From Bdellovibrionales bacterium (GTDB lineage: Bacteria; Bdellovibrionota; UBA1018; CAIMNF01): 37,927 nucleotides of DNA. Position 1 is the stretch's first letter. Each line of letters begins with the position of its first letter. The DNA lies in assembly GCA_018969905.1 (NCBI GenBank), contig JAGWXK010000014.1, forward strand, positions 1 through 37,927. Direction: 5' to 3'. The position numbers and the translations under genes were made by a program. Below the pieces are notes generated by a model. The model was given only the letters and a program-made list of their open reading frames with translations. It was not told where the DNA came from and did no database searches. Of the stretch, positions 2,812 through 37,084 are shown one piece after another.

Positions 2812-2862
2812 ATCAGCTTTTCCCGTTTGATAGGGTCCTTCGCCAGGGAGGACTTTCGAGTC

Positions 2863-21511: not shown

Positions 21512-22234
21512 TCAGGCTGCCTTTTTAGTGTTCCGATAGACTGATGCGTCGATTTGATGCCGTCGAAGAAGTCTTAGAAAGTTGCTCCGGTCCACGGACG
21601 CCTCTTTTGCGGCAGCCGTCACGTTTCCTCCATGCTTGACGAGCACCTGTGTGAGGTACTCTTTCTCGAAGGCCTCGGACCACTTCTTTTTCAGAACAGT
21701 ATAGCTCGAGGTGTTTTCCTTGTCGCTCCATTCATCGACATCTATCGAAGTCTGAGGCACAAAGGTCATCTCGGCCTCTTGTCGGTTTCCGCCCGAGGAT
21801 TCGGAACCCGCTGAGATATTCACGACGTTCTGGGCATAGGTCTCGTTAGCCTTTTCGAGCGATCGCTCCTTCAGGGTGCGGTTGACCGCATGGACCATTT
21901 CCTCCATGTCGAAAGGTTTTTCAAGGTAGTCTGAAGCTCCGATGCGGAGGGCCTGGATTGCGGTTGATTTTTCACCATGACCGGTCATGACGATTACCTT
22001 CATGCCCTTGTGTTGTTCCTTCACCTCTTTGGTGAAAGTGATGCCATCCTTGCCCGGCATTTTCACGTCGCTCACGATGAGTGAAATATTGCGGTTCTGG
22101 GCCAGAACTGCTCCAGCTTCCCCAGCGTCACCGGCAGTGAGAACGATGAGTCCCTCTCGCTCGAAACGGGCTTTCAATAGCTTCCGGATTGCTTCTTCAT
22201 CATCTACGATCATTACGACGTTCTTGGTGTTCAT
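21512..22234 (-). CDS. Response regulator: receiver plus Fis-type HTH, no AAA+ domain
   Basis: This 240-residue regulator has a receiver domain at 1-125 with VDDEE (acidic pocket), LIVSDVKMPGKDG (phosphorylated Asp56), MTGHG and YLEKPF. A roughly 65-residue linker with Ser/Thr/Asn-rich composition follows. The C-terminal 50 residues form a Fis-type helix-turn-helix (HGGNVTAAAKEASVDRSNFLRLLRRH) as at the end of NtrC proteins. The sigma-54 AAA+ ATPase domain is missing, so it should bind DNA but cannot itself activate sigma-54 holoenzyme. The layout is like ActR/PrrA or AlgB-derived short regulators. Its ATG overlaps the kinase stop by 4 bases. It is followed by a terminator. Confidence 0.9.
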   Translation of the reverse strand: MNTKNVVMIVDDEEAIRKLLKARFEREGLIVLTAGDAGEAGAVLAQNRNISLIVSDVKMPGKDGITFTKEVKEQHKGMKVIVMTGHGEKSTAIQALRIGASDYLEKPFDMEEMVHAVNRTLKERSLEKANETYAQNVVNISAGSESSGGNRQEAEMTFVPQTSIDVDEWSDKENTSSYTVLKKKWSEAFEKEYLTQVLVKHGGNVTAAAKEASVDRSNFLRLLRRHQIDASVYRNTKKAA

Positions 22235-23382
22235 GCGGCCTCTCCTTCTTGAGTTATGCCCAGTGGGCGGAATGTGAGTTTGAATTCGGTCCCATGGCCT
22301 GGTTCGCTTTGAACTTCGACCGTGGCCCCGATTTTTTTTAAAATTCCATAACTGATACTGAGTCCGAGCCCTGTTCCTTTGCCTACTTCTTTCGTGGTGT
22401 AGAAAGGGTCGAAAATCCTGTTCCGCGTTTCTTCGTTCATGCCGCAGCCGTCATCCGAAACTGTAACCAGAATCGAGTCGCGGGGAGCGGAGACTTCAAT
22501 ACGAATGAGACCGCGGCCCGCGTGAGCGGCCTCGATTGCATCACGCGCATTGCTTATGAGATTCACAAAAACCTGTTCCAGCTGGATCGGGTTCGCAAGC
22601 AGGAGCGGAATCTGCGGATCAACTTTGATTTCGGTCCGAATGCCCTTTTGGTTCAGGCTATGACTCATGAGTTTTACCGCTTCCCGTACCGCATGCTCCA
22701 TGGATGTTTCAGTCTTTTCCTCTCCGGCCTCCCTGGCAAAAGACCTGAGCGATTTGATGATCTCTGCCATTTTCTTCGAGGCATGAATGATGTCCTGAAC
22801 GAATTCCGTTCCGGTGGGGGAAAGTTTTTCGAACTCCGCAAGTTCCTGGCTGAACCCGAGAATCGCTTGAAGCGGTTGGTTCAACTCGTGCGCGATTCCG
22901 GACGATAGTTCTCCAAGGGAGGCAAGCTTCGCGGATTGGGTCAGGGCCGCCTGTGTACGACGAAGTTCAATAAAGGCCTGATTCAATTCCACATGATTCC
23001 TGATCAGTTGTTGTTCAAGGTTCTGTTTTACCTGTACGTCTTCAACTACGGTCAGGAACCCTTCGATGGAAGAGCTTTTTAAGCATGACACCCTGAGTTC
23101 AACGGGGATTCTTTCACCGTCGGTGTTTTCAATTTGGAAGCCTTCATGTCGGCCCGGACTGGTGAGGACCGAAAGATCAGGTTTGCGCTCGCGGATCAAG
23201 CTGATCCTGGAAGGTGTTTCAAACCTTTGAAGGGGGGCCTTGCCGAACGCAGCTTCGAATGCGGAGTTTGCCCAGAGAGTCCGGGACATGGAGTGATACA
23301 CAAGCACCGGCATCGGGAGGGACTCGAATCCCTCCGGAATCGCGAACTCAGGAGTGGTGACTTTCAGCTTCTTAATGCCCAC
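22231..23382 (-). CDS. PAS-domain sensor histidine kinase (cytoplasmic)
   Basis: This 383-residue kinase has no membrane span. A PAS-like sensor domain (about 16-123) is followed by a short coiled coil and the phosphorylation motif LGELSSGIAHELNQPLQA (His165). The ATPase domain has the N box NPIQLEQVFVNLISNARDAI, G1 SDDGCGM and G2 GKGTGLGLSIS. I propose the GTG at 23382, because it overlaps the upstream HDOD stop by only 11 bases. A frame start at 23523 would bury about 150 bases of the HDOD gene and add a Pro/Arg-rich tail unlike a protein domain. Its partner is the response regulator that follows with an ATGA overlap. Confidence 0.88.
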   Translation of the reverse strand: MGIKKLKVTTPEFAIPEGFESLPMPVLVYHSMSRTLWANSAFEAAFGKAPLQRFETPSRISLIRERKPDLSVLTSPGRHEGFQIENTDGERIPVELRVSCLKSSSIEGFLTVVEDVQVKQNLEQQLIRNHVELNQAFIELRRTQAALTQSAKLASLGELSSGIAHELNQPLQAILGFSQELAEFEKLSPTGTEFVQDIIHASKKMAEIIKSLRSFAREAGEEKTETSMEHAVREAVKLMSHSLNQKGIRTEIKVDPQIPLLLANPIQLEQVFVNLISNARDAIEAAHAGRGLIRIEVSAPRDSILVTVSDDGCGMNEETRNRIFDPFYTTKEVGKGTGLGLSISYGILKKIGATVEVQSEPGHGTEFKLTFRPLGITQEGEAA

Positions 23383-24211
23383 TGAGGATTGCCCCCGCTT
23401 TCTCAAATTCTTTCTGGAAGTGGATCTCAAGGGCCTCGAGTGCGCGGGAGCCCAGCCCGAGCCGGGTCTGGGTTTCAACCATGATGCTTTCGAGGCCGGG
23501 ATCGTGATTTCCTGAATTGCCAAGGTTTCGGAAATTCACACGCAGGTTCGCCCATTGGATCAGGGTGCAGGAACGATCAGACAATCCGGAGTGGTGAAAT
23601 TGGATCGCTTTCTGGATGCCCGGAGGAAGCTTCCAGTGCTTTGCGAGTTCAAGACCAAGATCCACATGTGTGCTGTCCCCGAGTTCTCTTTCCGCGGCGA
23701 GGAAGGAAAGTTTTTTTTCCTTGGCAAGACGAACGATGCGGGCCAGGTGTTCTGGAGCCGTTTCAAGCAAGATGAGTTTACCCACATCATGAATCAATCC
23801 GCCCACAAAAGAGTCTGAGGGATTCTCGAGTTGCAGGGTACGGGCGGTCATTTCGGCAAGTTGTCCCACGGCGAAGGAATGCATCCAGAATGGGGCAAGG
23901 GGAAATTCACGGATTCCCTGTGTCTTGAATGATCCGAAAACAGAGCTGGTCAGCACAATCTGGGCGATGGTCGTAAAGCCAAGATAATGGAGTGCCTTTG
24001 AAACCTCTGACACACCCCCTGGAATCGAATAGTAGGAAGAGTTGGCCAGACGAAGGACCTTCGTGGAGAGCCCGACATCGGACTTGATCAGATCGGAGAT
24101 TTCAGAAAGGGTAGCGGTCGGCGATTGCATGCGCTCGGTTACGCGCATCGCGATTTGCGGCAAGACCGGAAGTGATTGGATCTTTTCAATCCATGAGGAG
24201 TGTGTACTCAT
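23372..24211 (-). CDS. HDOD-domain signalling protein
   Basis: This 279-residue protein is a single HDOD domain covering residues 5-210 and a helical tail. Motifs include IQSLPVLPQIAMRV at the start, LANSSYYSIPGGVSEVSKALHYLG, GGLIHDVGKLIL (HD pair retained) and FHHSGLSD. HDOD proteins usually act as signalling or regulatory modules, sometimes linked to motility and c-di-GMP, and are often encoded beside two-component genes, as here. The start ATG at 24211 gives the standard N-terminus; an ATG at 24235 is also possible. It is the first gene of the HDOD-kinase-regulator trio, separated by about 95 bases from the LemA-like gene upstream. Confidence 0.9.
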   Translation of the reverse strand: MSTHSSWIEKIQSLPVLPQIAMRVTERMQSPTATLSEISDLIKSDVGLSTKVLRLANSSYYSIPGGVSEVSKALHYLGFTTIAQIVLTSSVFGSFKTQGIREFPLAPFWMHSFAVGQLAEMTARTLQLENPSDSFVGGLIHDVGKLILLETAPEHLARIVRLAKEKKLSFLAAERELGDSTHVDLGLELAKHWKLPPGIQKAIQFHHSGLSDRSCTLIQWANLRVNFRNLGNSGNHDPGLESIMVETQTRLGLGSRALEALEIHFQKEFEKAGAILSGH

Positions 24212-24306
24212 CACTCTATGTATCGGTCGACACATGCTTGAACTTGAGAGGAAGAGTTAAATGGAAATGGAATCAGCTCTGATGAAAAGATGCCGATTCC
24301 GCCGAC

Positions 24307-24822
24307 TCAGTTGGCTTCGCGCTGATGAAGCAGAGCCTCGGCAGGGAAGACGGGGATTTTTTGCTGGCCGGTCCTGAATTTTTGGATCAGGTCATCCGCT
24401 TCGATGGCGGCATTGTGGTATTTTTGACGGTTCTTGTTGATCTTCTCCTCGATTCTTTCAAGATCTTTGATTTTTTTTTGAATCTCGGGATTCGAAAGAA
24501 GCGAGCTCAAGTGATTGGTGACCTTCGTCTGGAATGAATCAAAATCCCTGAAGTCGGTCTCTGTCTCGAGTTTCAGGTCCGGAATTTTCGAAAATTCCCC
24601 GGGAAGTTTTCCGCCAGAGACCTTCTGCCATTGAATCATCAGGTCAAAACGCTCCTGGTAAAGGTTCAGTAGCTCCTTGGCGATGGGCTGCACCTGGCTG
24701 GCTACTTCATTTACTTTTTGGATCGACTCTTCTCTGGGTTTCCAGTATCCGGAATAAAATACCACTCCGATAAGTACAGAAACCGCAGCCACGCCGGAAA
24801 TCATAAGTGAGTTCTTTTTCAT
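24307..24822 (-). CDS. LemA-like membrane-anchored coiled-coil protein
   Basis: This 171-residue protein has an N-terminal hydrophobic anchor (about 7-26) and an all-helical extracytoplasmic part. RFDLMIQWQKV and the C-terminal IEEKINKNRQKYHNAAIEADDLIQKF followed by VFPAEALL resemble LemA, whose final helix carries A-R-x-x-Y-N-x-x-V and an F-P motif. The match is partial, so I call it LemA-like. LemA function is poorly known and is tied to envelope processes. The ATG at 24822 has AGGA about 8 bases upstream. The gene starts 29 bases after the giant lipoprotein gene stop, suggesting cotranscription. Confidence 0.65.
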   Translation of the reverse strand: MKKNSLMISGVAAVSVLIGVVFYSGYWKPREESIQKVNEVASQVQPIAKELLNLYQERFDLMIQWQKVSGGKLPGEFSKIPDLKLETETDFRDFDSFQTKVTNHLSSLLSNPEIQKKIKDLERIEEKINKNRQKYHNAAIEADDLIQKFRTGQQKIPVFPAEALLHQREAN

Positions 24823-24851
24823 GACTGAATCCTAATCAATAAGACTCCGCA

Positions 24852-27800
24852 TTACCACCATCTTTTGACCATCCTGATGGAGTGCGATCCTCGCTCCGAG
24901 AAGTAGAGGTTTCCATCGGAATCGAAGACAAGCCCGTAGGGTGCAAAGAGTTTCACGGAAGGGTTGTCCGAAACGACGCCCTCCTGTTCCGTTCCAAGAG
25001 CTGCTCCTGATCTCACATCAAGTGCGGTAGAGGGCGTTCCCCCGATGATGCGACTGGTGGCGCCTGAAGAGGTCGATACCGCATAACAGGTGATGTTGTG
25101 GCTGCCGATCATGGCATTGTCAAAGCGACCTCCCGCAACACACATCTGGGTCACTCCGTTTACCGTTACCGCCGCAAGACCGTTCACGGTTGCATAGTTC
25201 GCTCCTCCCTGAGTCGGTGGGTTCATGTATTGGACAAATGTGATGGTTCGGATATAGGGCTCACCCGGAACCGAAGTTCCGTTCACGGTCTGATTTCCGA
25301 CTGTCACGGAAGTTGAGCGGAAATTTGCATAACGAATCATGGAGCCTGAGGTCAGGTCTGGAGTGTCGGCAAAAAAGAAGTTACCGTCTGCCGCAAAACG
25401 GGGATCGATCGCAATCGCGGTGGGGTAGCGAATGACAACACTCGAGCTGCTTGCCTGGCCAGCGGTTGCGGTGCTGGTGGGAGCAGTGATTCCAACCAGG
25501 CCGGTCTGATGACACCTGACGTTCGAACCGGTCCCCGTTCCGACCACGACTTGCGATGATCCATTCGGCATGACTTTCAGGATGCAATGATCCTGACGGT
25601 TTGTGACATAGAAATTGGTTCCGTCGGACGCGATTCCCTCCGGGTTGAAAAGGGTGAAGGAATCATAAGTGAGTGCTCCGCGTGAAAAGGTGCCGGTCCC
25701 GTAAGGTCCGCATCCGAGTCCCATGTCGCCCAAGGCATTGAAATACCGGTTGGAGGAAACCGTGCCCGCACCTGGAAAAAACTGGGTGGAGGTGGAGCCA
25801 AGATTGAAGCCTCCCACATAGCAGAACTGATCCGGACCACCAGTTGAGTTGTCCCAGTGGAAACCTGCGGTCGCGCTTACGGAGTTCGCGGTGTCCACAT
25901 AGAGCAGGAAGGGATTTCCACCGGCAGTATGCATGGTGAGTCCACGAGGGGAGTTCATGGAAATCAGGGTTGGATTGCTCCCATTGCTTGGATTCATGTT
26001 TGTGGAACCGTTTCCTGCGAAAGTGTTGACATTTCCCTGAAGAAGATCAAGCACCCGGATGTAGCGGCTTCCCGGATCGCTGATGTAGAGCCTTCGATTG
26101 GCATTGTCGACGGCAAGTCCTGTCGGGGACGAGTAGAACATTTCATTGGTCTTGGTGATTGAAGCGCCGAGATTTCCGGATCGTCCAAATCCGCTCCCGA
26201 TCGTATCGTTTACCTGAGAGCCGGTGACATCCAGCGATCGAACACGGAAGTTGTTCTGATCGGTCACAAGGAGCTGATTCTTTGCTCGATTCATGCTCAG
26301 ATTCCCAGGAGTGTTGATCCGGGTTGCAACGCCGAGTCCGGGACCGTCTGCCGCAGCCGAGGTCCCCCCCAGCACCACTCCTCCCCGGTAGGCTGGAATG
26401 GTGTTACCTCCAATGGTGATCGGGCCGTTCGTGTTGTTCATGAAAAGGACACGATGAACGTTGGATGCGCTGATGAAAAACCCTCGAACCACTCCTCCCT
26501 GTTCATAAACCTCGAGTCCACCGGGCAAGTTGAATGTCAGGCCGCCGTATTCGAGATTCTGGTTGGCAGCCGGGTAGGCGGATGTCGGCGTGTTGGTATT
26601 TGGATTCGGGAATCCAAGAAGAGATCCGACTTCGCCCGTAGGAATCACCACTGCGGTTTTGTAATAGATTGTGGTTTCGGAGGTGCCGGTTGCAATGGTG
26701 GCGCTCGTTGACAAAGAAGTGCAGTTTGCATCGGAGTAAAAGGAACCGAAGGTATTTGTGCTGAACCGGAAAAAACGGTTCGCAGTTGCATTGGATGGAT
26801 CACCGGTGCTGGTCCTGAGCTGAAGTTTATAGGGGACACAGGCATCGAAGGGAATTTCCCGGGGACCATACAGGGCAGCATTGTTTTGGGCGCCGGCGGC
26901 GCTCGCGACCACTGCCGCACTGAATCCGTACGGAGTCACAGCAAAGGCCGCGCTGTTCATGCTGGCCGCCGTGATTCCATTGGTGGTGCCAATCGTCCAG
27001 TTGATGCTTTGTGCGGATGTAGCGCGGTAATAAAAGACCGTACCATGGGTGCCCGCAAGGATGCTGACCGTACGTGCGCCCGCAGACCCCCCGATCACTC
27101 CTGTGCTTGTCGTGCAGTTTGAATCATTAAACAGGTCACCTGTTCCCGTAACGGTAACGCTCACTGCTGTGTTTGCAGACGCAATCACCAGTTGGTTTGA
27201 GTTGTTGAGAGCGGTCATCCTGTACTCGTTGCAGGTGTTGGCAAGGAATCGGTCGGTGCCCGTGATCCGAACGCGGGTCACCGGTGCGGTGGTGAGTCCG
27301 TTTCGAGAGCTGTAGGGTTGAATGCCAAATCCATTGCTGCCAAGCGCGGTGACAGAGCCCAGGGTTCCAAGCGCAATGGAGGCGTTGGTGTGCTCATTGT
27401 AGTACAGGGCGATCCAGGAGCTTATGTCCTCGGTTGTGGTTCCGCCGAAGAAGGTGAGCGGGGTGGACCCGGCATTGAATACCCTGACTCTCGCGCCTGA
27501 AATCCCTCCGAAACCACTGAGACCAGCTCGGTCTCTTTCAATCCAATAGACATTATGGTTCGAATCTTTTGCCAAAGACCAAGGATTAACGGTTCGTGAG
27601 GCACCGTAGGTGATGCCGATGGGCCCGTCGATCGCACCCCAGCCAACCTGGTTTGAAGTCAGGGAACCGGAAACCATGAAGGTCCTTCCGTAATTCACAG
27701 CATCGCCATCCGAAAATGCCGCCTTCATCCGCTTCACGGCATGCAGGCCGTAACAAGTCACATACAAAAATTTGTTGGGGCTTTCGCCGGCAAGAATCAC

Positions 27801-30800
27801 ATCCGCAGGGCCAGTGCAGATATGATTGATGCCTTGAGCACCCTCTGTGTTTCCGGCAGCGTTATTTGCAAGGGTCGCAGCACCCGGGACTTGACCCAAA
27901 ATGGTTTTTACCTGTCCAAGGGTGGGGCCGGCACGCCCGTCAACTCTCACGACACGGTTGTTGTTGTAGTCCGCGATGTAAAGAAACCTCTCGGCATCAT
28001 CCAGTGCAAGACCTCCACCTACCATATTGAGTTTTGCAAGAGTATTGAAGGCATCCTCATCTGAAATTCCCGGAGTCCCGTTTCCGACCAAGGTAACCAC
28101 TCCGCCAGTCGAGCCGGGAGAGCTTGCTCCAAGAGCGGTCTTTCCGAATACGGTTACCGGGCATGTTGAGTTGCCTTGTCCACAGGAATAAGTACCATCA
28201 AAAGGATTGCGTCCGGATCGGTTCCAGAAGCTCACGGTCTGGTTCAGGCTATCTGAAAAGAACCAGTTTCCATAAGCGTCCTCAATGACCTTCATGGGTT
28301 GAATCCGGAAGTTCGACTGATCGGATGCCGGAATGCGGCCGTCACCCACTCCGACCAATCCTGAAAGAGTACATACCTTACCGCCTTCTTCGGCGACCGT
28401 TCCGTTGAACAGGGTATTGCATTGATTGCTGAAGTGATTCACCTCCACGGTCCAGGAGTGCGTGAAAGACTCGTTTCCGTCGGTCACTTCCACAGACAGG
28501 GTGTGGGGATTGTTCGAGGTTACCAGGCTGACATTGTGAGGATTGAAAGTGGCGCTATTCGTGGTGCTGTTCAAAAAGGAGTTCTGTATTGATCCGTCAA
28601 GCCTCCAGATGTAGGTCAGGTTGTCATTGTTGGGATCACTGGCCGTGACCGAGAAGCCCATGGTCGATCCCTGAGCCACGCGCCAAACACGGGAATTGTC
28701 TGGAGAGGCTGCGGTGCGGGCAGGCGGTCCGTTTCGCTTCACGTTGAAGGTACAGTTCACTTCCGGAGAATTCAATGCATCGGTGGCAAAGGCCCTGAAT
28801 ACATAGTTGGATGGCTGTGCTGCAAGCGAGGTGGAGGAAACACTTTGCAACGAGGTGCTGTTCGTGATGCTTGCGCCATCACGTGTCCAGCGGAATGCGG
28901 TTCCATTCAACACGTTGATGATCAGGTCCCTGTCCGAAACGCCCGGACCGCCGCTGGAAAGAAGCACGATCGGGTTTGCATTCGGATTGCATGAAACAAG
29001 AGATACCGTATTCGGGTCTGTAATTCCGAAATTCCAATAGCACTCTCCCGAGTCGTAACCGTCATTGAAAGTGAGTGAGAGTTTTTGTGCCGCTCCCACC
29101 TGGTTTGAAGTCGGAACAAACGTCATGGACTGGGTCGTGGTCGGTGTGATCGGACTCAGTGAAGAATAAATTCCCGGTGGATTCGAGCTATCGTTGAATT
29201 TCCAGATGAAGCTTGAGAGCGCATCACCATCAGGGTCGGAGCCGGTTCCTGAAAACACGTTTGTATTTGTCGTATATGGAAAAGAGGAGGGATTGGATGC
29301 CGGAATCTGGGACAGGCAAGCGGGGATTTGGTTCCGGGTGATCGCCCAGCTGCGGGTCGAGGTGCTCACGCCATTTGAGATCTGGACTGACAGGGTATTC
29401 CCGGAGCCCGGAGCGAGGCTTGACCCTGCGATGGTTTGAATGGAGTTTGTTCCGCTGATCGGAGATCCGTTCAAGGTCCAGCTCGGAATGCAAGACGAGT
29501 CGTTCGGGATGATCACGTAGTTCTGGGTTGCAATCGACGAGTTCGCCACCTTGTGGGTTGTCGTGGTCGGGGATGAAGAGACGATGGAGCATTGGTTTGC
29601 AAGGTTGAAGTTCCAGTAACACTCTCCCGAATCATAGCCGTCAGAAAATACGAGGCTCAGTTTCTGTCCATTTCCGATCTGTGAGGTCGTGGGCGCAAAT
29701 GTCATCTGCTGGCTTGTCGTCGGGCTTGCCGGGGTAAGGGAGGTAAAGATGTTCGATGGAGTTGCGCTGTCGTTGAATCTCCATGAAAAGCTGGTGAATG
29801 CATCGCCATCCGGATCCTGGGCGGTTGCTGAAAAAACCCTGGTGTTGTCGGTGTAAATGAAAGGTGCGGGATCCGTGGCAGGGGTTTTTCCGGCACAGGA
29901 GGGGATCTGGTTTCTGGCAATGTTCCAAGTCCTTGTTGCGGTGCTGGTACCATTTGACATGGTGGCGACCAGCATGTTTCCAGCTCCGTTATTGAGCTGC
30001 GATGAGGTGATCAGCTGGTGGGGACTTGAGCTGCCAATCGGGCTTCCGTTCAGTGTCCAGGTTACGGCACAAGAGGCATCGTTCGGGACGACGGTATAGG
30101 TTTGGGAGTTGGTTCCGGCGGATGCCATTTTATAGGTCGAGGTGCTTGGGAGAGATGAGACAAGCGAGCATTGATTGGAAATATTCATGGTCCAGGCGCA
30201 CTCTGCACTGTCATATCCATCGCTGAAAGAAAGGCTCACTTTTTGAGCGGGTCCGATCTGCGAGAATGCGGGAGTGAAGTCAGCACTGCGGCCATTGGAG
30301 ATGTTTGAGATGTTTGAGAAGAGAGTGGGGGCCGCTGCATCGTTGAAGCGCCATGAAAAGCTTGAAAGTGTATCACCATCGGTGTCGGTGCCTTCGGCGC
30401 TAAGATTTCGGGTCGTTCCGAATGCGAAGGGGGCCGGGTTTGCAGCGGGTGTTTTGTTTCCGCACGTGGGTGGGACATTCCTTCGAATGCTCCAGGAGCG
30501 GGTGGAGGAGCTTGTTCCATTTGAAATGGTGACAGAAAGGGTGTTTGTCGGATTGAGGCTTTCCGAAGTGAGGTTTCGCGTATAATCGCTCCCACCAAGG
30601 GTGGCCCCATTGAAGGTCCATGCTGCGGTACACGAGGAGCTGTTCGCACCGACGGTGAAATCCTGTGAGCCACCGACTGCCGGCATCTTGAAATCGTTTC
30701 CCGCCGGAAAAGAAGAAAGAATGCTGCAGACATCGGTAATGTTCATGTTCCATGAGCACTCGCCAGGGTCATAGCCGTCCGTGAAGGTCAGGCTGATTTT

Positions 30801-32558
30801 CTGAGAAACTCCGATCTGGGCGGAAGTGGCGCTGAATGTAGCCGAGCTTCCTACCACTGTGTTTGCAATATTCGTGAAAAGGGATGAAAAATTGCCGCTG
30901 TCGTTGAATTTCCACTGGAATCCGCTCACCGTATCCATGTCAGGATCATTTGCAATCGCAGTCAGATTTTGGGCGTTATTGTAGGAGAACGGAGCGGGAT
31001 TCGTAGACGGGACCTTGACCACGCATGCAGGGACCGAGTTTTTGGAGACGGTCCAGGTTCTGGTCACAGTACTCGTTCCGTTTGTCAGGGAGGCGACCAG
31101 TGTGTTGCTGGAACCCGTGAGGAATTGGGAAGAGGTGAGTACCTGGGTTGGGTTGTTGCCAGCGAGTGGTACCCCGTTCAGGGTCCAACTCACACCGCAA
31201 CTGACATCATTGGGAACGACCGAGAAGGTTTGGGTGGTGCCCGCAGCATTTGCAACCCTGTGGGTCGATGTGGATGGAAAAGAGGATGCAACCACGCATT
31301 GATTCGTGATCGGTACAGTCCAGCTGCACTCACCGTTGTCGAGTCCGTCCGAAAACACCATGCTGACTTTTTGTGCGCTTCCAACCTGGTTTGCTCCGGG
31401 AGTGAACATGGCACTGCTTCCGTTTCCGGCACCGTTTGTGGTAACGCCTGTGAAGAGGGACGGAAAGGGTGTGTCGTTGAATCGCCAGGAGAAGCTACTG
31501 AGGGTGTCCCCGTCCGAGTCAGTGCCGGATGCGGAAAATGACTGCGAGGACCCATGCGCAAACGCCGGCGGATTGCTTGCAGGTGTTCTTGAGCTGCAGG
31601 TCGGAGGATTGTTCTTCTCAATGGTCCAGGATTCAGTGTCAGAGCTGACTCCATTTGAGATACTCAAGGTGAGGGTATTTGTTCCTGCCACGAGTTGGCC
31701 AGAGGTGATGGTGCGCGACAAGCCGGTGCCGGCAAGGGGGGTGCCATTCAGGGTCCATAGAGGGGTGCAGGCTGAATTGTTGATTGTAGCGCTGAAAACC
31801 TTTGTGCCACCCGAATTCGCCATCCGGTTCGTAGCGGTTGCGGGAAAGAGGGCATCAATGGAGCAGCCGCCGCTCATATTCATGGTCCAAGAGCACTCGC
31901 CGGAGTCGAGTCCATCGGAAAAAGTCAAGGCAACCTTGTGGGTACCCATCTGATTCGAGGTGAAAGTTGACGAACTTCCTACAGCAGTTGTGATGACATT
32001 CGTGAAACGATCCTGGGCCAATACGTCATTCATTTTCCAGGTGAAACCGGTAACCGCATCACCGTCCGGATCAACGGCAGCCGCGCTCAACTCCTTCGGA
32101 AAGGTGAAGATGAATGGTTCCGGATTCCCGGAGGGTGACTTTACAACGCAAGTGGGAGCCTTGTTTTTCGTGATTTCCCAACTCTTGGAATCGCTGCTCG
32201 TTGCGTTGCTCACAACTGCTTCCAGTACATTCACGGCATCGCTTACCAGCATGCTGGAATTGATCTCTTTTGAGACTGCTTGACCCGATACCAAGACTCC
32301 ATTGAGCCGCCAGGAAATCTCGCAATCCTCGTGCACGCCACCGACCACGAAGTTCTGGAGTCCGCCACTCGCAGCCATCCTGAGTGCGGATGTTTCTGGA
32401 ACGGATGAGGCGATCTTGCATTTCACGAGGTCCTCTTTTTTTGCAACTTTGGAAGCAAGAACGTTTGAGAAGCGGGAATCCGAACAGGCAGTCAAAGCGA
32501 TCAGGAAAATCACTTTCAATGGAATCAATTTATTTGCCTGCATTTTGGTAGGTCCCAT
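24852..32558 (-). CDS. Giant surface lipoprotein: six Ig/PKD-like repeats plus interrupted NHL propeller
   Basis: This 2568-residue lipoprotein is the largest gene in the window. The lipobox LTAC gives a lipidated Cys25, with Ser at +2, compatible with outer-membrane sorting. Residues 47-1180 hold six tandem repeats of about 190 residues, each made of two beta-sandwich-like halves with four conserved cysteines and motifs such as C-x-x-x-WTLNG, DPDGD, W[RK]FND and FSDGYDSGEC-W. A degenerate seventh unit runs to about 1390. The rest, to the C-terminus KRWW, has at least eight NHL-type strands (YIADYNNNRVVRVDG, LYISDPGSRYIRVLD, NLYFSERGSHSIRMV), interrupted near 1710-2010 by other beta domains. 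It is probably a surface adhesin or binding protein. An ATG at 32543 is an alternative start. Confidence 0.85.
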   Translation of the reverse strand: MGPTKMQANKLIPLKVIFLIALTACSDSRFSNVLASKVAKKEDLVKCKIASSVPETSALRMAASGGLQNFVVGGVHEDCEISWRLNGVLVSGQAVSKEINSSMLVSDAVNVLEAVVSNATSSDSKSWEITKNKAPTCVVKSPSGNPEPFIFTFPKELSAAAVDPDGDAVTGFTWKMNDVLAQDRFTNVITTAVGSSSTFTSNQMGTHKVALTFSDGLDSGECSWTMNMSGGCSIDALFPATATNRMANSGGTKVFSATINNSACTPLWTLNGTPLAGTGLSRTITSGQLVAGTNTLTLSISNGVSSDTESWTIEKNNPPTCSSRTPASNPPAFAHGSSQSFSASGTDSDGDTLSSFSWRFNDTPFPSLFTGVTTNGAGNGSSAMFTPGANQVGSAQKVSMVFSDGLDNGECSWTVPITNQCVVASSFPSTSTHRVANAAGTTQTFSVVPNDVSCGVSWTLNGVPLAGNNPTQVLTSSQFLTGSSNTLVASLTNGTSTVTRTWTVSKNSVPACVVKVPSTNPAPFSYNNAQNLTAIANDPDMDTVSGFQWKFNDSGNFSSLFTNIANTVVGSSATFSATSAQIGVSQKISLTFTDGYDPGECSWNMNITDVCSILSSFPAGNDFKMPAVGGSQDFTVGANSSSCTAAWTFNGATLGGSDYTRNLTSESLNPTNTLSVTISNGTSSSTRSWSIRRNVPPTCGNKTPAANPAPFAFGTTRNLSAEGTDTDGDTLSSFSWRFNDAAAPTLFSNISNISNGRSADFTPAFSQIGPAQKVSLSFSDGYDSAECAWTMNISNQCSLVSSLPSTSTYKMASAGTNSQTYTVVPNDASCAVTWTLNGSPIGSSSPHQLITSSQLNNGAGNMLVATMSNGTSTATRTWNIARNQIPSCAGKTPATDPAPFIYTDNTRVFSATAQDPDGDAFTSFSWRFNDSATPSNIFTSLTPASPTTSQQMTFAPTTSQIGNGQKLSLVFSDGYDSGECYWNFNLANQCSIVSSSPTTTTHKVANSSIATQNYVIIPNDSSCIPSWTLNGSPISGTNSIQTIAGSSLAPGSGNTLSVQISNGVSTSTRSWAITRNQIPACLSQIPASNPSSFPYTTNTNVFSGTGSDPDGDALSSFIWKFNDSSNPPGIYSSLSPITPTTTQSMTFVPTSNQVGAAQKLSLTFNDGYDSGECYWNFGITDPNTVSLVSCNPNANPIVLLSSGGPGVSDRDLIINVLNGTAFRWTRDGASITNSTSLQSVSSTSLAAQPSNYVFRAFATDALNSPEVNCTFNVKRNGPPARTAASPDNSRVWRVAQGSTMGFSVTASDPNNDNLTYIWRLDGSIQNSFLNSTTNSATFNPHNVSLVTSNNPHTLSVEVTDGNESFTHSWTVEVNHFSNQCNTLFNGTVAEEGGKVCTLSGLVGVGDGRIPASDQSNFRIQPMKVIEDAYGNWFFSDSLNQTVSFWNRSGRNPFDGTYSCGQGNSTCPVTVFGKTALGASSPGSTGGVVTLVGNGTPGISDEDAFNTLAKLNMVGGGLALDDAERFLYIADYNNNRVVRVDGRAGPTLGQVKTILGQVPGAATLANNAAGNTEGAQGINHICTGPADVILAGESPNKFLYVTCYGLHAVKRMKAAFSDGDAVNYGRTFMVSGSLTSNQVGWGAIDGPIGITYGASRTVNPWSLAKDSNHNVYWIERDRAGLSGFGGISGARVRVFNAGSTPLTFFGGTTTEDISSWIALYYNEHTNASIALGTLGSVTALGSNGFGIQPYSSRNGLTTAPVTRVRITGTDRFLANTCNEYRMTALNNSNQLVIASANTAVSVTVTGTGDLFNDSNCTTSTGVIGGSAGARTVSILAGTHGTVFYYRATSAQSINWTIGTTNGITAASMNSAAFAVTPYGFSAAVVASAAGAQNNAALYGPREIPFDACVPYKLQLRTSTGDPSNATANRFFRFSTNTFGSFYSDANCTSLSTSATIATGTSETTIYYKTAVVIPTGEVGSLLGFPNPNTNTPTSAYPAANQNLEYGGLTFNLPGGLEVYEQGGVVRGFFISASNVHRVLFMNNTNGPITIGGNTIPAYRGGVVLGGTSAAADGPGLGVATRINTPGNLSMNRAKNQLLVTDQNNFRVRSLDVTGSQVNDTIGSGFGRSGNLGASITKTNEMFYSSPTGLAVDNANRRLYISDPGSRYIRVLDLLQGNVNTFAGNGSTNMNPSNGSNPTLISMNSPRGLTMHTAGGNPFLLYVDTANSVSATAGFHWDNSTGGPDQFCYVGGFNLGSTSTQFFPGAGTVSSNRYFNALGDMGLGCGPYGTGTFSRGALTYDSFTLFNPEGIASDGTNFYVTNRQDHCILKVMPNGSSQVVVGTGTGSNVRCHQTGLVGITAPTSTATAGQASSSSVVIRYPTAIAIDPRFAADGNFFFADTPDLTSGSMIRYANFRSTSVTVGNQTVNGTSVPGEPYIRTITFVQYMNPPTQGGANYATVNGLAAVTVNGVTQMCVAGGRFDNAMIGSHNITCYAVSTSSGATSRIIGGTPSTALDVRSGAALGTEQEGVVSDNPSVKLFAPYGLVFDSDGNLYFSERGSHSIRMVKRWW
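29013..32420 (-). repeat. Six tandem coding repeats of about 560-580 bp in the giant lipoprotein gene
   Basis: Repeat units recur at near-constant spacing, seen from the G-E-C-x-W motif codons near 29041, 29619, 30198, 30755, 31327 and 31892. The units have diverged clearly at DNA level, so this is an old array rather than a fresh duplication. Four cysteines per unit (unit start, about 35 residues in, at the half junction, and near the end) suggest two disulfides per repeat. Neighbouring units 4 and 5 look the most alike, notably around the FND and Q-[IV]-G segments. Confidence 0.85.
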
Positions 32559-32582
32559 ATTTTAATTTTATTCAAAAAATGT

Positions 32583-33155
32583 TTAAAATTCTATAACAAT
32601 GCCGCCGCACGCCGAAATCTCGCTTGCTTTGGCTGTTCCCCCTGCGGATAAAGAGTATGCTCGCATCGAAACGCGCAGACTCAACCGTTCCAGTAGATTC
32701 TTGTCCACTCCGACACCCACTCCAAATCCGGCATAGCTGGTCTGGATGCTTTGGTAATTTCTCTGTGCAAAGCTCAATGAAACGAATGGACGAAGATCTT
32801 CGGAATAAGACAGGTACCCGTGCTCTCCGCGCGACTCCAGACGGTGGGAGGCTCCGAGAAAATAATACGTTCCATTCAGATCGAGTCCAAAGCCGCTGTC
32901 ACCGCTGATGACTTTCGTGAAAAGAATCGTATAACCAAGTCCGATGTCAAAGTGGGAGTTGATGCTGCGACGATAGCCGATGCGGTACGTTCCGAATGCG
33001 GCAAGTTTACCACTTGTATCCCCGGAGCTTGCGTCAAGCGAAAAGCCACCGACTTCAAGATCCACGCTGTTTCCGGTAGCAAATGCAGGGGTTGCCATAA
33101 AAAGAATCATGCAGAATACCCAATTCCGGCTATGCGGCTTTTTTCGTTTTTTCAT
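32583..33155 (-). CDS. Small outer-membrane beta-barrel protein
   Basis: This 190-residue protein has a signal peptide (basic start, hydrophobic core, cleavage after PAFA) and then alternating amphipathic strands such as YRIGYRRSINSHFDIGLGYTI and AGFGVGVGVDKNL. It ends in IVIEF, with a terminal aromatic residue as recognised by the Bam machinery. Size and pattern suggest an 8-stranded OmpA/OmpX-like barrel. The ATG lies 26 bases inside the end of the FliF-FliG-like gene in another frame, so the two are likely translationally linked. It is 24 bases ahead of the giant lipoprotein gene in the direction of transcription. It could be the outer-membrane element of the same machine; this is inference. 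Confidence 0.83.
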   Translation of the reverse strand: MKKRKKPHSRNWVFCMILFMATPAFATGNSVDLEVGGFSLDASSGDTSGKLAAFGTYRIGYRRSINSHFDIGLGYTILFTKVISGDSGFGLDLNGTYYFLGASHRLESRGEHGYLSYSEDLRPFVSLSFAQRNYQSIQTSYAGFGVGVGVDKNLLERLSLRVSMRAYSLSAGGTAKASEISACGGIVIEF

Positions 33156-34908
33156 TGGCTTGGGGTTCCAGGGTCTCGCTGGAGTCGCTCTCTTTTGGGT
33201 TTCTATTTGACTTCAAAAAATCATCAAGGACTTCAACGGTCGAGGTTTCCCTTTCAGTGTCGAATTTCCTGAACTCGAACCCGATGAGTTCACGAACCCT
33301 TCCGGTCATCGAGGATTCGGGATTCCTGTCGATGCGTTTCAGGTTTTCAATGAACATGTAGTTCTGCTTTTCACTGAAGAACTTTTGGATCTTCTTGCGC
33401 TCGGTTTGGGCAACATTGAAGAGGGCCTGCGCCCATTGATCGGGTGTGAATTTTGGAACAAATAGTTTCAGGGCCGTCTCCTCCGCATCAAGGACCTTGA
33501 AGAAAGGGGGACGATGAAGATGGATCGCCGAATCCGACTTTGAGGCAAGGTAGATTTCCCGCTCCTCCTCCACGGAGGCATTGGATAGGAATTCCCTCAG
33601 TTCCATCTCGATCTTGTGCTTTTCGAATGCCTGAGGAGCCCTGAGGGGAAGGCTCTTCAGAGCCTCATCCGAAATTTTTTTGCATTCGGCATCGCTCAGG
33701 GACCGGGGTTTGAAGTCCGGATCTAGAAGATCCGCCCAGGCTCCAGGGAACGCCTTTCTTCCGGCTTCGATTGCTTTTCCTTTTGGGAGATGTCCGAGGA
33801 TTGCCATGCCCCGGTCCCGATCAAGCGAGCGAATGAAGACAGGGAGTTTTTCGTTCAGGCGCCATACGTGGATCAACATCGTTTCAAGTGCGGGTGAGCG
33901 CCCGGTGTCGGATTCCTTGATCAATTTTTGAAAAATCTCCAGATGGCTCAGTTCGAATCGTTCTGCCTTTAACAATGCATCAAACCACCAGTCGCCGGCA
34001 CTCATCGAGAAAAGTGTGTTACGCATCTGTACCGGGAGCTCCGAGAGGATGGCGCCGAGTTTGCCCGGATTCCTTCGGCCATAGTCATCAAGAATGATCA
34101 TCGACTGGAGATTCGGGAAGTCTTTTTGATCGCGCAGCTGGTTCACCATCTTCGAGATGATTTCGCTGATCTTGATCGGATCCGAGAGTTCCAATCCCCG
34201 CTTTGGTCCCGAGAAATCATCCCCCCCTGACTCGTCTTGCCTTGAAGGGGAGGTCATTCCCGCAGGGGACAGCCCCATGGGAGTTGAAACACTGGATGCC
34301 GTGTTCTTGGAGCCTTCGGCAAGGGCCCTTGTGATCTTCTGGGTGGATTGCCGATTGATCAGGTAAAGCCCGATCAGGAACAGAACTGCAAGGCCGAGTG
34401 CCATCAGTCCCTGAAGATAACGGTTGCTCGACTGGGTCCAGTTCCTTACTTCGATTTTTACCTCGTCGCGTGCCGGTGTCAGGTGAAGGCTCTTGAAGAT
34501 ATTCTCCCGAACCTCCACGATTTCCGAATCGCTTGTGCCGCTGCTCAAAGAGATGTCCACCACGATTTTCGTGGTGCGGAGTTGAAGGTGCTGGAGGGAG
34601 AGTGTGGGAACGTCCCATTCATCCTTGATTTCCTCGGAAAAGGAGTCGAAAAATGGAAGTGTTTCATTGTCCTGCGTTTTCGCGTTGATTCTTCGCAGTG
34701 GCTCAACGCTCACATTCACAAGAAAGGGCTGCTCCGGAAAGCGGGCCTTCAGGTAGGATCCGGCTTTGTCTCTCAGGTCGTCCTCGAGTTCGGCCACTCT
34801 CGGATGTTTTTGGATGGTTTCCGCACTGGCGATCCCCATGGTGAACCCGAGGATTCCGATGATCCTTGTGACCGAAGTTCTGAATTTGGATTTTTCCGCG
34901 TTTTTCAT
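33130..34908 (-). CDS. FliF-FliG-like fusion protein (MS-ring segment joined to motor switch domains)
   Basis: This 592-residue inner-membrane protein has a signal peptide or first membrane span at about 11-29 (cleavage likely after ASA). The periplasmic part (30-163) includes FLVNVSVEPLRR and KIVVDISLSSGTSDSEIVEVRENIF then DEVKIEVRNW, which recalls the FliF region before its second membrane span. A span at 164-185 follows, then a cytoplasmic linker. Residues 245-400 resemble FliG middle repeats (IILDDYGRRNPGKLGAILSELP, FIRSLDRDRGMAILGHLP, RKAFPGAWADLLD). Residues 465-545 resemble the FliG C-terminal torque domain (PPFFKVLDAEETALKLF, ALFNVAQTERKKIQKF, ENLKRIDRNPES). It overlaps motB by 4 bases. 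Confidence 0.75.
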   Translation of the reverse strand: MKNAEKSKFRTSVTRIIGILGFTMGIASAETIQKHPRVAELEDDLRDKAGSYLKARFPEQPFLVNVSVEPLRRINAKTQDNETLPFFDSFSEEIKDEWDVPTLSLQHLQLRTTKIVVDISLSSGTSDSEIVEVRENIFKSLHLTPARDEVKIEVRNWTQSSNRYLQGLMALGLAVLFLIGLYLINRQSTQKITRALAEGSKNTASSVSTPMGLSPAGMTSPSRQDESGGDDFSGPKRGLELSDPIKISEIISKMVNQLRDQKDFPNLQSMIILDDYGRRNPGKLGAILSELPVQMRNTLFSMSAGDWWFDALLKAERFELSHLEIFQKLIKESDTGRSPALETMLIHVWRLNEKLPVFIRSLDRDRGMAILGHLPKGKAIEAGRKAFPGAWADLLDPDFKPRSLSDAECKKISDEALKSLPLRAPQAFEKHKIEMELREFLSNASVEEEREIYLASKSDSAIHLHRPPFFKVLDAEETALKLFVPKFTPDQWAQALFNVAQTERKKIQKFFSEKQNYMFIENLKRIDRNPESSMTGRVRELIGFEFRKFDTERETSTVEVLDDFLKSNRNPKESDSSETLEPQANEKTKKAA

Positions 34909-35654
34909 GGTTTTTCCTTGGGTAGGGGCTCAATGACCAGAACCACCTTTCTGGCGAATCGATCCCCTTTTTTATCCTTTTGTACCGACTCCGATCCCGT
35001 ATCAATGTTCCCCGGAATGCGGTTCGCAAATGTTTCCCCGAATCCGACTATTTTCATTCTGGACAAAGGGATTCCGGAAGACTGAAGCACCCTCATGGAG
35101 GAAATTGCGCGGAGTGCGGACAATTCCAGGTTATCCCGATACCGATGGCCCGTCCTTACGGGTACGGTATCCGTGAATGCTTTGACATTCAGCATGTGTG
35201 TGCCTGCGAACTTCACATATTTTTTTGCAAAGACTTCAAGGTGTTTTTTTGCTCCCGACCGCACATCCTCTCGACCGAGGTCGAAGAAAGTGACCAACGG
35301 AAATTGAATGATGACCTTTTCTCCATCCCGAGTCACAGAACCGCCCCAGTCTTGAATGACCGCAGGATCGAGTTCACCCCTGGTGTCCTCTCCAAGTTTC
35401 ATTTTTGGAGGGGAATTCAGGGTTTCAGTTTCCGCAGAGGCTTTCTTCTCGCCGAACTCCGAAAGCAGCTCCTTCCTGAGAAGGGTTTTCTGCTCCTCTT
35501 GTTTATTGTTTATGTTGAAATACAGGATGAAAAAGGTGAGGAGAAGGGTGATCATGTCTCCGAAAGAGATTGCCCAGCTTCCTTCTGCATCGGTTTCTCC
35601 CTCGCCAAAGGATCTTCTCGAATTCCGAAACCCTGTGGATTCCCCTTGGGTCAT
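34905..35654 (-). CDS. MotB-like stator protein
   Basis: This 249-residue protein has one membrane span at about 30-48 (ISFGDMITLLLTFFILYF), with Asp33 in the place of the ion-binding aspartate of MotB. The periplasmic OmpA-like domain covers about 115-245, including VKAFTDTVPVR and the peptidoglycan-binding stretch DNLELSALRAISSMRVLQ, then MKIVGFGET. With MotA it should form an ion channel anchored to peptidoglycan that turns ion flow into torque. The ATG overlaps the motA stop by 4 bases, and its own stop overlaps the next start by 4. Flagellar, TolR or ExbD roles were considered; the OmpA domain favours the MotB type. Confidence 0.88.
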   Translation of the reverse strand: MTQGESTGFRNSRRSFGEGETDAEGSWAISFGDMITLLLTFFILYFNINNKQEEQKTLLRKELLSEFGEKKASAETETLNSPPKMKLGEDTRGELDPAVIQDWGGSVTRDGEKVIIQFPLVTFFDLGREDVRSGAKKHLEVFAKKYVKFAGTHMLNVKAFTDTVPVRTGHRYRDNLELSALRAISSMRVLQSSGIPLSRMKIVGFGETFANRIPGNIDTGSESVQKDKKGDRFARKVVLVIEPLPKEKP

Positions 35655-36463
35655 GATGCTTCCTCCAATGTTGGACCTGTCCCTTCGATTCCATCGGAGA
35701 ACAGATTGAGTCGGTCTCGTTTTGGAACAAAGGAGTTCAGTGTTTCCTGGGACTCAAGAAGATTGGTTCGCAGGGATGCCAAAATCACCGCTTGATGCGC
35801 GAGTTCGGAAGCTTTCTTTTCCTCAAGCGCCCTTTTCAGGAGGTTTTCTCCCGCCGGGTTGATCACGAGATTCGCCACCAGGAGTCCGTAGAGCGTTGCG
35901 ACAAGCGCAACGGCCATCCTGAGCCCCGTTTCGGTGGAGCTTGCCCCCTCGGAAATGGAACGCATCAGACTCATGAGGCCTAGCACTGTTCCCACGAGAC
36001 CGAAGGCAGGTGGATATTTAGATAACGACCGAACGACGTTTGCGATCTTGATTTTCCGCTCACACGATTGGAAGATCCGCTCCTCGAGAATGGACCTGAT
36101 CTTCTCGGTCGGAAAGCCCAGCTGGATCAGTTCCGCGCCATCCTGAAGGGTGCGATGTGCGAGTGTTTCCGCTTTTTCCAAATCGAATTTCGGCTGACCT
36201 TCAAGCGCGGATTGGATGAGGTTGAAGCAGTGCCGGTTCAGCACTTTCAGATCGATCGACGTTCCCCGAAAAAGAACACGGACAGCGAGCTTTATTTCCT
36301 CAAGATCCTGCCACGGAAATATGATGGTCGCCACGGCAAGGGTACCCCCGAGAACAACGATCACACCCACAGGATCCACGTAATTCGAGAAATCCTGTTT
36401 CAGGTGGAAGATCGAGAATGTGATGGCGACGAAGGAGATGATGATTCCTGTAATGAATTGCAT
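35651..36463 (-). CDS. MotA-like stator protein
   Basis: This 270-residue protein has four membrane spans at about 2-20, 31-49, 151-168 and 183-202, with a cytoplasmic loop of about 100 residues between the second and third. YPPAFGLVGTVLGLMSLM and ATLYGLLVANLVINPA are the signature third and fourth spans, with the conserved prolines (151/152 and 203). PVGVIVVLGGTLAVATI is the second span. The C-terminal tail carries a charged helix as in flagellar MotA, where it touches FliG. GAGGAAAC precedes the ATG. It is the first half of the stator pair, 9 bases after the PEGA lipoprotein gene. Confidence 0.9.
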   Translation of the reverse strand: MQFITGIIISFVAITFSIFHLKQDFSNYVDPVGVIVVLGGTLAVATIIFPWQDLEEIKLAVRVLFRGTSIDLKVLNRHCFNLIQSALEGQPKFDLEKAETLAHRTLQDGAELIQLGFPTEKIRSILEERIFQSCERKIKIANVVRSLSKYPPAFGLVGTVLGLMSLMRSISEGASSTETGLRMAVALVATLYGLLVANLVINPAGENLLKRALEEKKASELAHQAVILASLRTNLLESQETLNSFVPKRDRLNLFSDGIEGTGPTLEEAS

Positions 36464-36472
36464 AAAGTTTCC

Positions 36473-37084
36473 TCAGTCGCCTTTCCCCAGGATTGATTTT
36501 ATTTTCCCGATCATCTTCTGGGTTTCCGAGTTCTGGGGATTCAGATTCAAGGACGTTTCATAGGCCATAAGCGCCTGGTCGAGATTTTTCTGGAGATAGC
36601 GTACGTTTCCAAGGAGGTCCCAAAATACCGCAACATTCGCGAACTTCGCCGTGTAGGTGGCGAGCGAACGTTCCGCTTCGACATAACTCTTTTTGTAGAT
36701 CAGCCTCAGGATCTGCGCGACCCCTTCGCTTACCTCGTTTGTGGTGTTTGAGCCCTCGATCCGAGTCAGTTGGGCGTGAACCCGTCCGGATGCTGTTGTG
36801 GAGGCGGGAGGCACAAGAAAGGATTCGCTCCTGTAGCCTTCCTTTTGAACGGTGATCTGCAAGGCATCCCGAAAGAGCGCCGGAGCATTGGAGTTCGTGA
36901 GCTCAAGCGGTGTTTTTCCAACTTTGTCCTTGCTGTTATTGGCAGCCAAAATGTAGACATCCGCCCCATCAGGATTGCTTTCCACCTTAAGGCGGTTGCT
37001 TGCACACGCACTCAGAATCCCGGTAAGGATGACTGCCAGGAGCGCAAATCGGGAATTTCGAATATGGATGAGATTAAGACCCAT
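36473..37084 (-). CDS. PEGA/TPR lipoprotein heading the motor cluster
   Basis: This 203-residue lipoprotein has a lipobox LSAC with Cys27. Residues 32-110 form a PEGA-type domain (LKVESNPDGADVYIL, VGKTPLELTN, ITVQKEGYRSESFLV), a fold common in surface-exposed or carbohydrate-linked envelope proteins. Residues 120-200 look like two TPR-type helical repeats (AVFWDLLGNVRYLQKNLDQALMAYETSLNLNPQN). It is the first gene of the minus-strand block. Its start sits 135 bases from the divergent transporter gene. A short hairpin at 37086-37103 lies directly before the ATG. It may be an envelope adaptor of the stator complex. Confidence 0.83.
   Translation of the reverse strand: MGLNLIHIRNSRFALLAVILTGILSACASNRLKVESNPDGADVYILAANNSKDKVGKTPLELTNSNAPALFRDALQITVQKEGYRSESFLVPPASTTASGRVHAQLTRIEGSNTTNEVSEGVAQILRLIYKKSYVEAERSLATYTAKFANVAVFWDLLGNVRYLQKNLDQALMAYETSLNLNPQNSETQKMIGKIKSILGKGD

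Follow-up and report, generated by a model that had tools for sequence, protein, structure and literature searches.

FliF and FliG are, to our knowledge, known only as parts of the flagellum. According to a 2026 review, the machinery with which Bdellovibrio glides "remains unidentified", and to find the motor, the adhesins and the way in which force is transmitted is "a major open challenge" (PMC13104615). Gliding has competing candidates in this genus, since agl/glt-like clusters were proposed earlier, with Bd0828-0838 as the best candidate (PMC3169522), as were the surface-induced bd1480 (aglQ) and bd3099 (PMC9140294). Here we report on a cluster of seven genes on a 37,927-nucleotide stretch of DNA from a Bdellovibrionales bacterium (contig JAGWXK010000014.1 of assembly GCA_018969905.1; the whole stretch analysed is referred to as the window). 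Most of the cluster belongs to a conserved cassette, which probably encodes a machine of the cell envelope that has not been described before and is a candidate for the phylum's unidentified gliding or surface-contact motor. The open literature, outside which most subscription papers lie, yielded no description of a cassette of this kind.

With the flagellar motor, the cassette shares a MotA with four transmembrane segments (4-TM), a MotB with an ion-carrying Asp and an OmpA-like domain, the RBM3-TM2 part of FliF, FliG domains, and a basic residue at the position of FliG Arg281. Conversely, FliF and FliG are fused in one chain that lacks RBM1, RBM2 and TM1 and, in the family to which this cassette belongs (type A), the EHPQ motif, and the unit has no FliM/FliN, export gate, rod, hook or filament, ending instead in an outer-membrane barrel and a propeller lipoprotein. 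A FliG-type rotor domain in combination with a MotA/MotB-type stator is thus found, whereas a full FliF MS-ring, the EHPQ motif and linked export, rod, hook or filament genes are not. Sequence evidence supports the gene content, homology, residue conservation, co-occurrence and separation from flagellar genes described below, and we consider it highly likely that the cassette, whose parts descend from the flagellar motor, encodes a stator-rotor machine that is non-flagellar and separate. As a FliF/FliG rotor outside the flagellum belongs to no known system, this would be a new kind of machine. If true, it would be, after the injectisome, another machine derived from the flagellum, one in which the motor was kept and the export apparatus dropped; on a stricter view it could be regarded as a variant of the flagellar motor.

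Gene content and spacing

The seven open reading frames (ORFs) were confirmed at positions 24307-37084. They all lie on the minus strand and are, in 5' to 3' order:

36473..37084, minus: P0001, outer-membrane-type lipoprotein of 203 amino acids (aa) with PEGA and TPR domains and a lipobox (Pfam PEGA 1e-4, TPR 1e-4)
35651..36463, minus: P0002, MotA-type stator subunit, 4-TM (Pfam MotA_ExbB 3.5e-19)
34905..35654, minus: P0003, MotB-type stator with ion-carrying Asp33 and an OmpA-like peptidoglycan-binding domain (MotB_plug 4.9e-10, OmpA 6.7e-7)
33130..34908, minus: P0004, predicted FliF(RBM3-TM2)-FliG fusion rotor protein, 592 aa (AlphaFold2/Foldseek and profile homology)
32583..33155, minus: P0005, small outer-membrane beta-barrel, the last core gene (OMP_b-brl 1.1e-6)
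24852..32558, minus: P0006, lipoprotein of 2568 aa with a lipobox, a long Ig/PKD-like stalk and NHL beta-propellers at the C-terminal end; putatively the output module at the surface (NHL 2.6e-11)
24307..24822, minus: P0007, membrane-anchored helical protein of 171 aa, weakly LemA-like; optional, not core (LemA 0.019, below the Pfam cut-off)

In this direction, successive genes are joined by a 9-bp gap, two 4-bp overlaps, a 26-bp overlap, a 24-bp gap and a 29-bp gap. The spacing is operon-like and, taken by itself, suggests cotranscription; promoter and terminator scans of the cluster gave no more sites than were obtained in shuffled sequences.

A preliminary description made from the window had proposed a flagellar-motor origin with a FliF-FliG-like fusion, which is borne out by structural modelling and profile homology, as well as MotA-like and MotB-like stators, for which the Pfam matches and the intact conserved residues speak. 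Its outer-membrane barrel and PEGA/TPR lipoprotein are likewise recovered by Pfam (matches listed above), and export, rod, hook and filament genes, which it had not seen in the window, were not found among the window genes scanned. The LemA-like gene lies at the place described, but its likeness to LemA is weak.

The FliF-FliG fusion

We refer to the family of the fusion P0004 as type A and to its sister family as type B; types C to G are our own labels for other gene orders. The predicted layout of P0004 comprises a signal peptide, a periplasmic RBM3 domain (approximately residues 36-157), a transmembrane segment (approximately residues 163-190) and a cytoplasmic FliG-like region (approximately residues 244-568), so that RBM3 and a single transmembrane segment are all that represents FliF after the signal peptide. 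A phmmer search of P0004 against the PDB sequences returned no match, the Pfam FliG_C match (0.045) is below cut-off, and profiles made from single sequences showed no similarity between the fusion and the FliF and FliG of the same genome; the profile homology was detected only with family alignments and type B as a bridge. The type B family profile matches flagellar FliG at 4.6e-17, across the N, M and C domains, and FliF at 3.5e-6, across RBM3, TM2 and the C-terminal tail. The type A profile in turn matches type B at 3.4e-12 over nearly its full length, and the control comparison of FliF with FliG gave 0.31. In addition, the type A member in locus L033 has Pfam matches to YscJ_FliF_C (0.023) and then FliG_C (2e-4), in that order, and variants C and D of the fusion exceed the Pfam cut-offs for FliG_M/FliG_C.

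An AlphaFold2 model of P0004, built from 18 homologues, reached a predicted local distance difference test (pLDDT) score of 76. When it was compared with the PDB by Foldseek, the top matches were structures of the middle and C-terminal parts of FliG (3ajc, 8umx, 1lkv, 4fhr) together with FliF S-ring/RBM3 structures (8z5v, 8z4g, 7d84), the two sets arising from two separate domains of the model. With the FliG C-domain 1qc7, the alignment covered 87 columns, at a root-mean-square deviation of 1.9 and a TM-score of 0.81 of the target. The whole-model E-values were modest (best 5e-3), probably because a transmembrane segment and a disordered linker join the two domains. On profile homology and modelled structure together, P0004 is judged to be a real FliF-FliG fusion.

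The FliM-binding motif of FliG_M, EHPQ, is absent in type A, and its position reads EAPD in the type B fusion of this genome; the loss of this motif suggests that there is no directional switch. Lys514 of the fusion, which corresponds in position to the torque residue Arg281 of E. coli FliG, is Lys or Arg in all members compared (35/35), and position 521, near E. coli FliG Asp288, is acidic in 23 of 35.

The MotA and MotB stators

The ion-carrying Asp33 of MotB is conserved in 35/35 sequences, as are Asn175 and Arg182 of the peptidoglycan-binding motif (35/35), and Pro151, Pro152 and Pro203 of MotA are conserved in 32/32. In a MotA tree, the cassette stators and the flagellar 4-TM MotA proteins are split from the ExbB/TolQ-like clan with a support of 100/100; within this group the cassette MotAs cluster together (support 88/96), some on long branches. 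The best NCBIfam matches of the stator proteins are the flagellar MotA/MotB models, TolQ reaching just 3.3e-5. In terms of a published MotAB study (PMC12505986), the cassette stators look from their sequences like flagellar-type stators and not generic transporters. Judged by their conserved residues, the motor parts look functional.

Conservation and distribution

The cassette was surveyed by whole-genome profile search in 369 Bdellovibrionota genomes, and 37 distinct type A loci were mapped. Of these 37 loci, 24 have all five core genes (PEGA/TPR lipoprotein, MotA, MotB, fusion and outer-membrane barrel) in an unchanged order; among the incomplete ones, no barrel gene was found in four and eight are cut by contig ends. 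In nearly every locus, the gene immediately upstream of motA codes for a PEGA/TPR lipoprotein homologue. The expectation that the seven genes would be conserved together holds for the five core genes and the propeller lipoprotein, but not for the LemA-like gene, which is present in only 3 loci: the conserved unit consists of five genes plus the propeller lipoprotein, with the LemA-like gene outside it.

At a threshold of E below 1e-70, fusion homologues were found in 68/369 genomes of the phylum, spread over 11 families, and the cassette is thus widespread but patchy; within the order, this cassette occurs in 13 of 55 genomes. A pattern-based scan of named genomes had pointed to a rare feature of 17 loci from metagenome-assembled genomes, which was rejected when the whole-genome profile search revealed a phylum-wide occurrence. 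Chance or an assembly artefact was likewise rejected, as the 24 loci that share the gene order come from numerous genomes and families.

A departure from the common arrangement was seen in one of the 37 type A loci (L031:1291-10500), where a solitary type A fusion is followed by a 2275-aa lipoprotein, with no adjoining stator genes.

Other gene orders and the Bdellovibrio motA2/motB2 locus

Two further cassettes are present in this genome. The first, of type B on contig C78 (L041:1-9000), comprises an RBM3-only partner, fusion, MotA, MotB and PEGA/TPR lipoprotein. The second, on contig C159 (L264:1245-5831), is very divergent and has the type A order of lipoprotein, MotA, MotB, 571-aa fusion and barrel. 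Relatives carry the gene orders labelled C to G. The cassette is a member of a superfamily that extends across the phylum in several gene orders, among them apparently that of the motA2/motB2 locus of Bdellovibrio bacteriovorus.

In the corresponding Bdellovibrio locus (L110), MotA, MotB, PEGA/TPR lipoprotein and FliF-FliG fusion lie within about 7 kb, and neither the type A outer-membrane barrel nor the type A propeller lipoprotein was detected in that region. The genome G118, which we take to be that of B. bacteriovorus HD100, has MotA genes at 0.13, 2.92 and 3.17 Mb, the type B cassette being located at 2.92 Mb. These coordinates agree with the sequence of known locus tags, which makes motA2/motB2 (bd3021/bd3020; PMC11323537) the most likely identity of the cassette at 2.92 Mb. 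This locus would share with the window's cassette its superfamily and the set of MotA, MotB, PEGA/TPR lipoprotein and FliF-FliG fusion, and differ in its type B gene order and fusion. With a type B cassette apparently present in HD100, the question of function is directly testable.

Some further features of these loci were recorded. In L041, an extra RBM3-like protein is encoded just upstream of the fusion and a 1095-aa protein without Pfam match downstream. A further class (L250:7761-12268, L251, L252, L253 and L254) has the order lipoprotein, fusion, an optional gene of 160-190 aa, MotA and MotB; its fusions are 740-783 aa long, possibly with two periplasmic RBM-like repeats, and one of them (P0016) exceeds the Pfam cut-offs for both FliG_M and FliG_C. 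In Bdellovibrio-like genomes, a gene for a 583-603-aa protein is convergent to the type B fusion (L110:8673-10424, also L108, L111, L112 and L114); the L110 copy is a HAMP-SpoIIE phosphatase and a possible regulator.

Separation from the flagellum

The flagellar FliF and FliG of the same genome are encoded on contig C111, FlhA on C106 and a flagellar-type MotA on C72. Such a search for separate flagellar genes had been named beforehand as a check, and it came out in favour of a separate system: the cassette is not this genome's flagellum. Across the near-complete genomes of the order, flhA is present in 33/33 and this cassette in only 6/33.

The best evidence that the cassette family can exist without a flagellum comes from one incomplete genome, G082 (89% complete). 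It carries a variant cassette (L259) of PEGA lipoprotein, MotA, MotB and a fusion (P0015) that exceeds the Pfam cut-offs for FliG_M and FliG_C, and no FliF, nor any FliG_M protein besides the cassette fusion, was detectable in it. Likewise, FliF and FliG were not found in its relative G075 (93% complete).

A stand-alone FliG_C protein of 146 aa (E 4.2e-22) is encoded at L043:18257-18697 on contig C33, and similar proteins of 144-155 aa occur in another family.

The propeller lipoprotein

P0006, in which a lipid-anchored Ig stalk bears two NHL propellers, is part of the unit. In 22 loci, a homologue of its C-terminal region adjoins the core, in some cases upstream of it or on the opposite strand. 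Strong homologues (E below 1e-25) were, within the order, confined to cassette carriers. The N-terminal Ig/PKD-like stalk is very variable in length, from about 200 to about 1600 aa. A compact homologue of 1005 aa (L173) was modelled by AlphaFold2 with a pLDDT of 87.6 as Ig-like domains followed by tandem NHL propellers. Its relatives in the PDB include teneurin-like, NHLRC2 and LRP6 propellers, and the tandem propellers thus resemble extracellular receptor and adhesion proteins, a likeness of the modelled fold only, which does not prove adhesion. The preliminary description's giant surface lipoprotein is upheld as a lipid-anchored Ig/propeller protein whose architecture is suited to the cell surface and which may be an adhesin.

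A Cys-x(2-10)-Phe pattern follows the lipidated Cys (e.g. at about 32480 of the window) in 22/23 of the large lipoproteins, compared with 16/67 other predicted lipoproteins from the same loci, a count to be taken as a lead only, as the lipidated Cys positions of the giant lipoproteins were chosen by eye. The motif may be a docking signal.

Proposed machine and alternative explanations

In the machine that we propose, the MotA/MotB stator would be held to the peptidoglycan by the OmpA-like domain of MotB, and the fusion, with FliF RBM3, TM2 and FliG in one polypeptide, would form an inner-membrane ring. Stators driven by the proton-motive force would turn this ring, and its periplasmic RBM3 part would carry the rotor motion into the periplasm. 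The PEGA/TPR lipoprotein and the outer-membrane barrel may then act as a pair that couples the motion to the outer membrane, outside which the propeller lipoprotein would bind a surface or prey, in adhesion, gliding or prey contact. The unit has no switch, rod, hook, filament or export gene. That the whole chain works as proposed, with an ion-driven stator-rotor machine that stands alone and acts via the propeller lipoprotein at the cell surface, is, in our estimate, slightly favoured, and for surface adhesion or gliding as its output we see an even chance. It is a tentative and rather doubtful extension that Bdellovibrionota possess a separate class of rotary machines driven by the proton-motive force, in which a flagellar stator-rotor pair with FliF joined to FliG has been released from the flagellum, and which turn or drag surface propeller/Ig lipoproteins, and that type A or type B (motAB2) is the phylum's unidentified gliding or prey-contact motor.

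Several observations weigh against the proposed machine. Among its parts, no connector was recognised that would bridge the RBM3 ring and the outer membrane, and this link is the weakest step of the model. P0006 could face the periplasm. Without the bridging family, the direct matches of the type A profile are weak (FliG 0.034, FliF 0.0019). The electrostatic stator residues of E. coli MotA (Arg90/Glu98) are not clearly kept in type A. As flhA is present in every type A carrier of the order, a link with the flagellum is conceivable. The motA2/motB2 pair of B. bacteriovorus, apparently from a related cassette, has been treated as a flagellar stator (PMC11323537).

The last two points make an auxiliary flagellar module the strongest rival, in which the cassette stators, perhaps with a FliG-like ring, would add torque to, or regulate, an ordinary (often sheathed) flagellum. 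Deletion of each motAB pair in Bdellovibrio is reported to affect swimming modestly. The presence of flhA in all near-complete genomes of the order would agree with such a role, as would the altered expression of motA2/motB2 (bd3021/bd3020) in fliL mutants (PMC11323537). However, the fusion is without RBM1/RBM2 and TM1 and, in type A, without EHPQ; the rotor has its own dedicated stators, its genes lie outside the flagellar cluster, approximately 80% of the flagellated relatives are without the cassette, and G082 has one despite its lack of detectable flagellar FliF and FliG. We regard this explanation as unlikely.

Also improbable is a Tol-Pal-like motor for envelope maintenance, in which the ion flow would act on links between peptidoglycan and outer membrane or on lipoprotein traffic, and the propeller lipoprotein would be periplasmic like TolB. 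The OmpA domain of MotB, the outer-membrane barrel, the outer-membrane-type lipoproteins and the beta-propellers are all compatible with it, and Tol-Pal and TonB-ExbBD share with the cassette a related ion-motor family, an OmpA-like peptidoglycan-binding domain and a propeller protein. Nevertheless, Tol-Pal is needed generally, whereas the cassette is patchy (68/369 genomes); the FliG rotor has no counterpart in Tol-Pal, which is without a rotor ring; the motors of these systems are of the ExbB/TolQ clan, those of the cassette of the 4-TM MotA clan; and the Ig stalk of P0006, at >1000 aa, would extend far beyond the need of the periplasm. The TolQ/TolR/TolA/TolB/Pal set was not recovered from the cassette with the NCBIfam models.

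The comparison with the Agl-Glt gliding machinery of Myxococcus, drawn in the preliminary description, stands as an idea: both sets span the envelope and combine an ion-driven stator with a TPR protein, an outer-membrane barrel and a surface lipoprotein, and the phylum is known to glide (PMC13104615). That the cassette is itself a variant of this gliding/focal-adhesion machinery is, however, very improbable. Its stators group with 4-TM MotA and not with the ExbB/TolQ-like clan of AglR/Q/S, a FliF/FliG-type rotor is not part of the Agl-Glt descriptions compared, no Glt protein was recognised in the cassette, and the Agl-Glt-like clusters of Bdellovibrio are separate loci (best candidate Bd0828-0838), for which FliG is not mentioned (Luciano et al., PMC3169522). 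In the T9SS (type IX secretion system)/Gld machinery of Bacteroidota (GldLM, SprB), a motor driven by the proton-motive force drives a surface protein, as proposed for the cassette, and GldLM resembles MotAB without homology (PMC13104615). That system has no FliG, T9SS parts were not recognised in the cassette, and neither the GldL/GldM motor nor the GldK/GldN ring gave a Pfam or NCBIfam match in the seven proteins. An anti-phage defence motor like Zorya, which also has a MotAB-like pair (ZorAB) and whose ZorB models match the OmpA domain of the cassette MotB at 1.1e-11, is barely credible, as MotA, fusion, PEGA lipoprotein and barrel match no defence model (ZorA included), the genes beside the cluster include no recognised effector nuclease or helicase of the ZorC/D/E type, and the partners are others, the cassette being linked to a propeller lipoprotein.

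Neighbouring genes

Directly downstream of the cluster and on the same strand (21515-24235 of the window, minus), genes for an HDOD protein, a histidine kinase and a response regulator follow, which were not seen beside the closest other cassette copies. The window also holds two genes for RsmB/F-type rRNA methyltransferases, at 1540-2808 and 20184-21443, both on the plus strand, and one at 2827-4383, plus strand, whose product has a transglutaminase-elicitor domain (Pfam 2.1e-28).

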